64,000 nt of DNA from Candidatus Thorarchaeota archaeon (lineage in GTDB: Archaea > Asgardarchaeota > Thorarchaeia > Thorarchaeales > Thorarchaeaceae): assembly GCA_029855935.1 (NCBI GenBank), contig JAGSHN010000004.1:62001-126000 (forward strand), written 5' to 3'. The translations under genes were made by a program, and so were the position numbers. Within the stretch, counting starts at the first letter, position 1; every line of letters starts with the position of its first letter. The notes below the pieces were generated by a model, which was given only the letters and a program-made list of their open reading frames with translations, made no database searches and was not told where the DNA came from. Shown piece by piece: positions 18,398 to 29,758 of the stretch.

Positions 18398-19699
18398 ATG
18401 GAAATAGGAACCGACTTTGATCAGAGCACTGCCAAATACGTCATCAGAGCCCGAATAGATATTGACGGCGTTGTTGACAAGCCCGATGTCATTGGGGCCA
18501 TCTTCGGACAGACGGAGGGACTCCTCGGCGAGGACCTCGACCTACGCGAGTTACAACGAACTGGTAGAATAGGGAGGATACAGATTGCCATCAGGTCAGA
18601 GGGTGGTACCAGCAAAGGCGAGATTGTGATTCCCGTGTCACTGAACAAGACTGCCACTGCCATTCTTGCAGCCGCTCTCGAAACCGTTGACCGGGTGGGG
18701 CCGTGTACGGCGAAGGTCACTCTCGAGAAGGTTGAGGATATCCGGGGGGCCAAACGTAGGAGGGTCGTCAGTAGAGCGATAAGCATACTAAAGGGCTGGG
18801 AAGAAGATGTGGCTCCGGGGACGGAGGAGATAACCGGTGCCGTTGAGAGAGCCAGCCGAAAGACCATTGTGAAGTTTGGTCCCGAGAAGCTTCCGGCTGG
18901 TCCCGACCTAGAGAGCAGCGATGAGATAATCATTGTCGAGGGGCGGGCCGATGTTATCAATCTACTGAAGAACGGCATAACTAATACGGTGGCTGTTGAG
19001 GGCACTCATATCCCCAAGTCCATCGTGGAACTGACGAAGAAGAAGGGGAAGCGGGTCGTAGCGTTCCTTGACGGTGACAGAGGCGGCGACCTTATTCTTC
19101 GCGAGCTGATGCAGGTGGCCAAGGTTGACTATATAGCGAGAGCGCCGGAAGGGAAGGAAGTCGAGGAGCTGACCAAGAGAGAGATATCAAAGGCGCTCCA
19201 GACAAAGATTCCCGCGGACCAAGCTCTAGCACTCGTGGAGGAGCGCAAGGCACCATCACCACGGAAACGCAAGACGCCAAAGAGATCGACAACAAGGCCG
19301 AAGAGAGAGGAAATTGCCGCTCCCCCCCCGACACCAGCGTTGGAAGCCCCTCATACGTCGCGCAGAATAGGTAGATCCGTTGTCAGGCCGCCCATCGAGC
19401 TTGATGAGGAATATATTGCGAAGGTTGACGAGATAAGGGAGTCGTTCAGAGCAGTGCTGTTCGATGCAGAGAAGAACATCATTGCTGAATGCGGTGTTGC
19501 CGAACTGACGAGGCATCTGGAGGATGTGGAGTCGGTCCACACTATCGTGTTCGATGGAGTTGTCACCCAGAGACTTGTTGACCTAGCCGCAAAGAAGGGG
19601 GCCACACTCATAATTGGGGCTGCAGCTGCGGACATTGAAAACAAACCACCGGGTCTGAGGTATATCACGTTCGAGGACATAGACCGCAGAAGACAGTAG
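18398..19699 (+). CDS. dnaG: Archaeal DnaG-type primase / exosome subunit
   Basis: 433 residues. The N-terminus has GVVDKPDVIGAIFGQTEGLL and DLRELQRTGRIGRIQI, typical of archaeal DnaG; the TOPRIM core has DEIIIVEGRADVINLL (catalytic Glu) and VVAFLDGDRGGDLI (Asp-x-Asp). A basic, proline-rich linker of about 70 residues precedes a C-terminal part. In archaea DnaG is a stable RNA exosome subunit and has weak primase activity. It is followed by a LonB-like ATPase and Pelota. Confidence 0.95.
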   Translation: MEIGTDFDQSTAKYVIRARIDIDGVVDKPDVIGAIFGQTEGLLGEDLDLRELQRTGRIGRIQIAIRSEGGTSKGEIVIPVSLNKTATAILAAALETVDRVGPCTAKVTLEKVEDIRGAKRRRVVSRAISILKGWEEDVAPGTEEITGAVERASRKTIVKFGPEKLPAGPDLESSDEIIIVEGRADVINLLKNGITNTVAVEGTHIPKSIVELTKKKGKRVVAFLDGDRGGDLILRELMQVAKVDYIARAPEGKEVEELTKREISKALQTKIPADQALALVEERKAPSPRKRKTPKRSTTRPKREEIAAPPPTPALEAPHTSRRIGRSVVRPPIELDEEYIAKVDEIRESFRAVLFDAEKNIIAECGVAELTRHLEDVESVHTIVFDGVVTQRLVDLAAKKGATLIIGAAAADIENKPPGLRYITFEDIDRRRQ

Positions 19700-27018: not shown

Positions 27019-28326
27019 GTGGACTCGCCGAGCTCCGCATCTGAAGAAGTCCACGGAAGTGAAACGCGGGTGAGCGGAAAATACGAAGGACAGTCTGAGG
27101 TGAACATAGGGGCGCTTGGGCACGTCGACCACGGAAAGACCACTCTTGTAGAGTATCTCACTGGAGAGTGGACAGACCGTCACTCCGATGAGATCAGAAG
27201 AGGCATATCGATCAGGCTCGGGTATGCTGCAACGACGATTCTCAAATGTCCGAGATGCCCAGAGCCCCAAGCGTATACGACCTCTCATCTGGCCAAGGAT
27301 GGAAAGTGCCCACACTGCGGCGCCCAGCTGGTGAAGCTAAGAGAAGTGTCCTTCGTAGATAGCCCAGGGCACGAGTCGCTTATGGCCACCTGTCTCAGTG
27401 GCGCCAGCCTAATGGACGGAGCAATCCTAGTGATAGCAGCAAATGAGCCCTGCCCCATGCCCCAGACAGCAGAGCATCTCCACGCACTGGAGATTGTCGG
27501 CGTCACGAACATAATAATCGTACAGAACAAGATTGAGCTGGTCAGCGAGGAAGAGGCGAAGGAACACTACAGGCAAATCAAGGAGTTCATCAAGGGAACG
27601 TCAATCGAGGATGCGCCCATCATTCCGGTTTCTGCAGTGTTCGGCGCAAACATCGACCTATTGATTCAGAAGATAGAGGAAGTGATTCCAACACCGGAAC
27701 GGAATGCCGATGCTCTACCGAAGATGTTTGTGGCCAGGTCGTTCGACATCAATAAACCCGGGACCTTGCCTCAGGATCTGAAGGGCGGAGTGGTAGGCGG
27801 GTCGATAGTTCAGGGCCGCCTCAGGGTTGGTGATGAAATAGAGATTGCACCGGGAATGAAGACAGACAAGGGCTTCAAGTCGATACGGACAAGAATTGTC
27901 AGTCTAGTTTCAGGCAGCGGCAACCACCTTGAGGAGGCCTATCCGGGAGGACTGATAGGGGTCGGCACGACTCTTGATCCCGCAATGACACGTGCGGACC
28001 GTCTTGTGGGCAATGTCGTGGGGAAAGTTGGAAAGATGCCCAAGACCGTGTATAAGCTGACGATAAGACCGCAACTCATGCAACGTGTGGTCGGCATGGA
28101 CTCCGAGCGTGAAGTCGAGAGCCTCAAGCACAATGAGGCGTTGATGCTTGTCGCAGGCACAGCCGCGACCGTGGGCGTCATAACGCGGCTGCACGAGAAC
28201 GAGATTGAAGTGACACTGAAGCGACCAGTCTGTGTCGAGAACGGGCAGAGAGTGGCTCTCGGAAGACGGGTTGACAACAAGTGGCGTCTCATAGGCCACG
28301 CCGTGATAGGAGCGAAGAAGGCGTAG
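27019..28326 (+). CDS. eif2g: Translation initiation factor 2 subunit gamma
   Basis: 435 residues. The GTPase signature [15 protein letters not shown] and QNKIEL are present, with a zinc knuckle between switches (CPRCPEP ... CPHCG), then two beta-barrel domains. eIF2-gamma binds GTP and initiator Met-tRNA. The GTG start gives a short Ser-rich extension; a GTG at 27070 ([14 protein letters not shown]) is an alternative. It is followed 6 nt later by a PIN-domain gene, as in many archaea. Confidence 0.96.
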
Positions 28327-28784: not shown

Positions 28785-28803
28785 ATGTCACAACGTTTTT
28801 ATG
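28785..28803 (+). promoter_or_regulatory. Promoter element before rpo7, identical to that before eS1
   Basis: ATGTCACAACGTTTTTAT occurs here and again, base for base, at 42853-42870. It includes a TTTTTAT TATA-like core about 140 nt before the rpo7 start, giving a predicted leader of roughly 110 nt that contains an inverted repeat TTGTTC-TAA-GAACAA. Confidence 0.55.
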
Positions 28804-28939
28804 GTGACTCACTCGTTGCTGCGCTGAGCCGCCGGGTCAGTACCATGGTAGTATGATGCCTAGGGTCTGATTGTTCTAAGAACAAATCTGGTAGAGAAGA
28901 GAGCAACAGACGTGGATATCGCACAAGGAGGTTCCACCG

Positions 28940-29539
28940 ATTTACTCAGTCGTCACGGTAAAGGACATCGTTAGAATTCCCCCATCTCAGTTTGGCCAGC
29001 CCCTGGAGGAGGCAGCCATAGTACATCTGAGGAAGAATCACGAGAACGTCTTGGATCGTGACATCGGCCTGATGATAGCAGTGATTGGAATAGATGAGAT
29101 TGGGCAAGGGAAACTCGTCCCCGGAGATGGAGCCACATATCACTCGGTAACGTACAGGGTGCTGGCATTCAAGCCTATCCGAGGCGAGGTTGTGGAGGGC
29201 AATGTTGTCGAGATAATGGACTTCGGGGCGTTCATACGCATAGGTCCTCTTGATGGCCTATGTCACGTCAGCCAAATCTGCGACGACTTTATCACCCAAG
29301 ATCCAAAGGGTAACTCTCTGATGGGTAAGGAAACCGGGCGTGTATTACAGGAGGGAGACCAGGTCCGTGCGAGAATCACCACAATACGCTTTGACACGGG
29401 CGGTAGATCTGGAAAGCTCGGGCTGACTATGAGGCAGCCTTTCTTGGGCAAGATTGGCCCAGATGTGTCTTGGATTGAGGAAGATGTCAAGAAGGCCCGC
29501 GGCGAGTCAGCGAAGAAATCTGAGAAGAAGGAGGGGTAG
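28940..29539 (+). CDS. rpo7: RNA polymerase subunit Rpo7 (RpoE1), probable AUU start
   Basis: 199 residues if started at ATT 28940. The N-terminal RNP-like domain reads YSVVTVKDIVRIPPSQFG and GKLVPGDGATYHSV; the C-terminal S1 domain has EIMDFGAFIRIGPLDGLCHVSQI and GKETGRVLQEGDQVRARI. Between an in-frame TAG at 28892 and the conserved N-terminus there is no ATG, GTG or TTG. ATT at 28940 is preceded by AAGGAGGT with 7-nt spacing. The first conventional start codon (TTG 29051) would remove 37 conserved residues. Rpo7 pairs with Rpo4 to form the polymerase stalk. Followed by spt4. Confidence 0.93.
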   Translation: MYSVVTVKDIVRIPPSQFGQPLEEAAIVHLRKNHENVLDRDIGLMIAVIGIDEIGQGKLVPGDGATYHSVTYRVLAFKPIRGEVVEGNVVEIMDFGAFIRIGPLDGLCHVSQICDDFITQDPKGNSLMGKETGRVLQEGDQVRARITTIRFDTGGRSGKLGLTMRQPFLGKIGPDVSWIEEDVKKARGESAKKSEKKEG

Positions 29540-29545
29540 TAACAT

Positions 29546-29758
29546 ATGCCACGGCTACGTGCATGTAGACAATGTCACTATCTCACCACAGAGAACATCT
29601 GTCCAAACTGTGGGAGTACAAACCTCTCGTCATCATTCACGGGTATCGTGGTGATTCTCCCTGGACGCGACCCTCACGAGGATCCGCGAAAGACCTCGTA
29701 CATTGCGGAACGACTGAACATAGACAAGCCCGGCAAGTACGCTCTCAAGGTGCGGTAG
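29546..29758 (+). CDS. spt4: Transcription elongation factor Spt4 (RpoE2)
   Basis: 70 residues. An N-terminal zinc ribbon (CRQCHYL and CPNCGS) is followed by a strand-helix part ending ERLNIDKPGKYALKVR. It pairs with Spt5 to increase polymerase processivity. It lies 6 nt after rpo7, the usual archaeal arrangement. Confidence 0.95.
   Translation: MPRLRACRQCHYLTTENICPNCGSTNLSSSFTGIVVILPGRDPHEDPRKTSYIAERLNIDKPGKYALKVR

Follow-up and report, generated by a model that had tools for sequence, protein, structure and literature searches.

A conserved AUU start codon in the rpo7 gene of a Thorarchaeote and its probable place among near-cognate starts sensitive to aIF1

Introduction

Comparison with orthologous genes indicates that rpo7 of a Thorarchaeote, encoding the stalk subunit of the RNA polymerase, begins at AUU, and that this start is genuine and conserved. 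In this respect rpo7 is not unique, as radA, dnaG and spt4 also have near-cognate starts; aIF1, the factor that guards start-codon fidelity, is itself encoded by a gene that opens at CUG. The rpo7 AUU is probably a member of a class of near-cognate starts that are sensitive to aIF1 and whose regulation we infer. Asgard archaea are the prokaryotes closest to eukaryotes, and start codons other than NTG have rarely been demonstrated. No report of conserved AUU or near-cognate starts in archaea, Asgard or Thorarchaeota was found in the open-access literature searched, which omits most subscription journals.

The AUU start of rpo7

The window is the whole stretch of 64,000 nt that was analysed, from a genome of the Thorarchaeota (Asgard), here G000. 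Its relevant features are:

28940..29539, + strand: rpo7 CDS (RNA polymerase stalk subunit Rpo7), 199 codons plus stop, ATT first
28940..28942, + strand: ATT (AUU) start codon of rpo7, placed by HMM position 1 and orthologue comparison
28925..28932, + strand: Shine-Dalgarno (SD) of rpo7, AAGGAGGT, with a 7-nt spacer to the ATT
28892..28894, + strand: in-frame TAG 5' of the rpo7 start
29051..29053, + strand: TTG, first canonical in-frame codon past the ATT; false start for ORF callers limited to NTG
28796..28803, + strand: TATA-like TTTTTATG, inferred rpo7 promoter, motif kept in the family
28823..28879, + strand: rpo7 leader element GCTGAGCCGYCGGGTCAG...GGTCTGATTGTTCT, from the alignment, with possible hairpin(s)
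29546..29758, + strand: spt4, ATG in the window (NF041664, 1.3e-20)
18398..19699, + strand: dnaG-like gene, ATG in the window; the name is inferred from the sequence, with no HMM search behind it

The original prediction, which had placed the start of rpo7 at this ATT, was accurate in its landmarks: the ATT, directly followed by YSVVTVKDIVRIPP, the TAG and the SD with its 7-nt spacer all lie at the coordinates given above, and between TAG 28892 and ATT 28940 there is no in-frame ATG, GTG or TTG. As read from the sequence, the first codon of a conserved coding region is thus not an NTG, and no NTG lies between it and the upstream stop. The protein scores 223.9 bits (1.2e-66) with NF006333 and 204.0 bits (1.4e-60) with TIGR00448, the equivalog models of Rpo7/RpoE with cut-offs of 143 and 124.2, respectively, and has both Pfam domains, SHS2_Rpb7-N (1.3e-15) and S1 (1.5e-14); its closest named match is from Ca. 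Thorarchaeota B65_G9 (94% identity). In the fragment translated from 28895 the ATT is residue 16 and aligns with profile position 1 of both NF006333 and TIGR00448, so that the conserved N-terminus does reach back to it, as had been proposed.

The neighbours of rpo7 are the genes for S6e (26532), aIF2-gamma, a PIN-domain protein, Spt4, S24e and S27ae. The ORF of aIF2-gamma probably starts at GTG 27070 (VSGKYEGQ) rather than at GTG 27019 (window 27019-27072), its relatives having VTRKYEGQ or VSPKYEGQ.

The alignment of orthologues that had been suggested as a check shows ATT at the rpo7 start in five of 42 family members, distributed over three genera (G000, G001 and G002, of one genus, G008 and G014), with saturated silent sites: fourfold-degenerate sites among these genomes are only 24-39% identical. 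The other members carry TTG (17), ATG (11), GTG (7) or ATA (2) at this position; ATA is ambiguous as a start, a GTG being present three codons upstream in both genomes (G016 and G022). Each of the five ATT genes has AGGAGGT 7 nt upstream and a stop 4 to 16 codons before the start, with no canonical codon between stop and ATT, whereas the genes starting at TTG, GTG or ATG mostly have just GGAG or GAGG as SD. Across codons 2-38, the differences between G000 and the other ATT genomes fall mainly in third positions (17/21 against G001, 20/26 against G002, 19/22 against G008 and 15/23 against G014), and in the same comparison codon periodicity is absent from the 36 nt 5' of the start.

These data bear on two other readings of the locus. 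An ORF list limited to ATG, GTG and TTG gives TTG 29051 as the start, so that gene callers of this kind would lose 37 Rpo7 residues, as had been foreseen; the idea that translation really begins there and that these residues are not made is, however, excluded by the evolution of codons 2-38 as coding sequence. They are conserved as protein with mostly third-position changes, the SHS2_Rpb7-N domain begins within them, and orthologues have ATG, GTG or TTG exactly at the position of the ATT; we give this reading practically no credence. Scarcely more probable is an error of sequencing or assembly, or a spliced or edited start further upstream. The genomes compared are metagenome-assembled, but the ATT is identical in five independently assembled genomes whose flanks differ, the upstream stops are close, and the SD spacing is ideal. 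Sequencing error in particular, named beforehand as what could overturn the ATT, is excluded by its retention in five genomes with saturated silent sites together with the third-position bias of codons 2-38.

Beyond the family, rpo7 starts at ATG in all six other Asgard genomes and all 28 Halobacteriota read. In several Bathyarchaeia ACG stands at the start position (L067:3998, L070, L185, L186 and L187, the last with no upstream canonical codon), so that a non-NTG start of rpo7 arose more than once.

Near-cognate starts in other genes

The sample for start-codon usage comprised 464 kb of G000 together with roughly 0.8 Mb from its relatives. The screen considered homologous, non-overlapping ORFs whose conserved part opens before any NTG, since antisense shadows swamped the unfiltered version, and covered about 600 homologous ORFs. 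It returned rpo7, radA, dnaG, spt4 and an ArsR-like gene, plus weaker or false candidates. Near-cognate starts are rare in this sample and concern mainly core information genes and aIF1.

The start of radA keeps a constant distance of 7 nt from an upstream GGAGGT, and in 39 genomes it is ATT (18), ATG (9), TTG (6), GTG (3), ATA (2) or ATC (1), so that AUU, AUA or AUC is found in 21 of them, G000 having ATA; in nine AUH genomes there is no canonical codon upstream. ATT is also present at the radA start in the other Asgard families f5, f6 and f12 (G050, G051, G059 and G066). The radA loci of the family, in which about half of the members have ATT, ATA or ATC, are L284-L313 and L344-L353, and those of the other Asgard families L364, L365, L366 and L368.

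At the homologous start of dnaG some genera have ATG or TTG and most others ATA or ATC, preceded two codons earlier by another AUH (loci L314-L343 and L354-L363). Many dnaG genes of relatives have no canonical codon at all, while G000 has ATG; the two neighbouring AUH codons compete, and neither has the ideal SD spacing. In spt4, the position of the Met codon is taken by ATA, behind a GGAGG-like SD, in 10 of the 31 genomes, and these all belong to genus g5 (L035-L052).

Two further observations came from the same material. An ArsR-like regulator has a CTG start behind GAGGTG, with no upstream canonical codon, in two genomes of genus g10 (L253:9669, - strand; L279:10951, + strand). A long ORF of G000 (L168:7733, - strand) opens IVVYKDDVRAGG, with ATT 7 nt after AGGAGGT, a stop five codons upstream and an ATG 14 codons in.

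The pattern AGGAGGT-N(5-8)-ATT occurs 30 times in G000 against 5 in the control, and 21 times against 21 in G002, so that on its own it is no proof of a start; most matches are not starts. Putative ACG starts in the sampled DNA of G000 were discarded, a canonical codon being adjacent in most cases. A search of G000 for the exact pattern TGGATCACCTCC, meant to locate the anti-SD, gave no match.

The start codon of aIF1

aIF1 (SUI1; PDB 4mo0, 1e-29) is encoded by a single copy in each of the 29 genomes checked. It destabilises complexes on non-AUG mRNA and discriminates against non-AUG starts (PMC6237735). In G000 its gene has CTG behind AGGAG where relatives carry GTG, and from the upstream stop as far as the SUI1 domain there is no ATG, GTG or TTG. 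Of the 18 family members compared, nine open aIF1 with CTG (G000, G001, G002, G003, G008, G010, G011, G013 and G014) and nine with GTG; none has ATG. There is no canonical codon upstream of the CTG in G000, G001, G002, G003, G008, G010 and G014, and in the last five of these [G002, G003, G008, G010 and G014] a stop precedes it by one or two codons; the CTG of G013 is less certain, canonical codons without SD lying upstream. Outside the family, aIF1 has ATA behind AGGAGG in G051 (L394) and CTG in G055 (L398). The gene of G000 is at G000:C1:10563-10775 (L404/L422), and further CTG loci are L401, L402, L405, L406, L409 and L413.

A CTG start of aIF1 accompanies the AUU start of rpo7 in all five genomes that have the latter, against 3 of 12 others (P 0.009, ignoring phylogeny). 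The pairing is not strict, since G010, G011 and G013 combine CUG in aIF1 with NTG in rpo7, and shared ancestry confounds it. The original prediction had seen in the AUU of rpo7 a possible link between translation initiation and transcription similar to that of infC. Its direction was right, and it gains unforeseen support from the fidelity-factor gene itself, which is CUG-started in G000 and in all five AUU-rpo7 genomes; the regulatory step is still conjectural. The proximity of rpo7 to the genes of aIF2-gamma and eS24, offered in its favour, is not borne out as evidence, because most family members start rpo7 at TTG, ATG or GTG.

Proposed mechanism and neutral tolerance

According to the mechanism that we propose, a near-perfect SD at fixed spacing would bring the rpo7 AUU into the P site, to be read by Met-tRNAi as a near-cognate codon, by G-U pairing or a mismatch at the third base. 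The combination of weak codon and strong SD would give moderate initiation, below that of AUG and falling as aIF1 rises. CUG-started aIF1 would limit its own synthesis by an infC-like feedback, so that in AUU-rpo7 genomes the level of aIF1 would set both its own synthesis and the output of the near-cognate genes, namely rpo7, radA and dnaG, joined by spt4 in some genera. These genes may be passengers or clients of aIF1 self-control, and the supply of Rpo7 would be capped and responsive to initiation factors. An AUU-started rpo7 with aIF1-sensitive initiation, together with the aIF1 self-feedback loop, has in our judgement a slightly better than even chance of being correct. The broader proposal of an Asgard regulon, in which aIF1 (CUG) would limit itself and set the supply of Rpo7 (AUU), RadA (AUU/AUA), DnaG (AUH) and Spt4 (AUA), is put forward only tentatively.

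The main rival to aIF1-sensitive regulation is neutral tolerance, by which the AUU of rpo7 is the true start but plays no part in regulation, any near-cognate codon being adequate behind a strong SD and start codons drifting among ATG, GTG, TTG, ATT, ATA, ATC and CTG; this reading has an appreciable chance of being right, if short of even. AUU is not required, as 35 of the 42 family members have AUG, GUG or TTG in rpo7. Several codons share one start position across the family in rpo7, radA and dnaG, and the AUU rpo7 genes all have the strongest SD, as compensation predicts.

The pattern of change was followed on a tree from Rpo7, RadA and DnaG whose deep nodes have weak support. Parsimony assigns 9 steps to the rpo7 start codon and 5 to its third base, compared with 12-22 (mean 15.3) for 37 fourfold columns and 8-13 for all-Ile columns of this gene and about 22 for random labels; for the radA start codon it counts 8 steps, and for changes there between AUH and NTG only 2. 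In both genes start-codon identity tracks phylogeny and is slower to change than silent sites, and drift with inertia would give a similar picture. Start codons have fewer allowed states than silent sites, so this result speaks for constraint, not for regulation. Against neutral tolerance stand the retention of AUU and AUH where silent sites are saturated, the rarity of near-cognate starts and their concentration in core information genes and aIF1, and aIF1 itself, the one gene with a known logic for a weak start, which is never AUG in the family.

The rpo7 leader

TTTTTAT or CTTTTAT is found 93-137 nt 5' of the rpo7 start in all 42 family members, and most of these genomes share a conserved leader block of about 55 nt (28823-28879 in the window), flanked by GCTGAGCCG and GATTGTTCT and placed roughly where transcription should begin. 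Within the sampled DNA the block occurs only 5' of rpo7; G024 and G040 each contain a single exact match, in both cases at rpo7. This conserved, rpo7-specific leader suggests, separately from the start codon, that rpo7 expression is controlled.

Rpo7 is an S1-domain RNA-binding protein, and the leader could be the actual regulatory element, bound for example by Rpo7 or by a DNA-level repressor, with AUU merely lowering the ceiling. Its conservation across 42 genomes and its confinement to rpo7 in the sampled DNA would fit such a role. Its inverted repeats would allow one or two hairpins, but the folding energy is unconvincing (mean z about -1) and covariation is not above that of shuffles; RNAalifold returned no structure, a hairpin named by hand failed the covariation control, and the leader has no match in Rfam, and thus does not qualify as a structured RNA leader. 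The block is also present where rpo7 starts at ATG, GTG or TTG, and we regard this explanation as unlikely.

Significance

A set of near-cognate starts is now visible in Asgard core genes, the fidelity factor aIF1 included. Owing to these starts, automatic annotation truncates or misplaces the essential proteins Rpo7, RadA, DnaG and aIF1 in many Asgard genomes. If the aIF1 regulon is real, it would couple the stringency of translation initiation to transcription and DNA maintenance and, together with infC and eIF1, it would make self-weakening of the start site of a fidelity factor a solution at which each of the three domains of life has arrived. Whether such self-weakening is universal becomes a testable question.

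Comparison with known systems

In a review of archaeal initiation the start codons named are AUG, GUG and UUG, and the term AUU does not occur (PMC7531240). Ordinary GUG and UUG starts resemble the rpo7 AUU in being non-AUG, SD-led and initiated with Met, and differ from it in the codon. A further parallel to rpo7 is sigR of Streptomyces, also a gene of the transcription machinery with a near-cognate start and mis-annotated by gene callers, whose GTC start is repressed by IF3 (PMC5472188); sigR encodes a sigma factor, whereas rpo7 encodes an RNA polymerase stalk subunit, starts at AUU and would respond to aIF1.

In bacterial infC, the AUU start (AUC in Streptomyces) autoregulates IF3 (PMC5472188). 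aIF1 is the archaeal functional counterpart of IF3, with a near-cognate start in its own gene, and would work like infC rather than being a member of that class: aIF1 is a SUI1 protein and no homologue of IF3, its codon is CUG instead of AUU, and its feedback is only predicted. Unlike the infC case, rpo7, radA and dnaG are here near-cognate-started too. Eukaryotic eIF1 belongs to the same SUI1 family as aIF1 and likewise has a weak start site of its own, through which its feedback acts (PMC5756025); in eIF1 the weakness lies in the poor context around an AUG reached by scanning, and in aIF1 in a non-AUG codon placed behind an SD.
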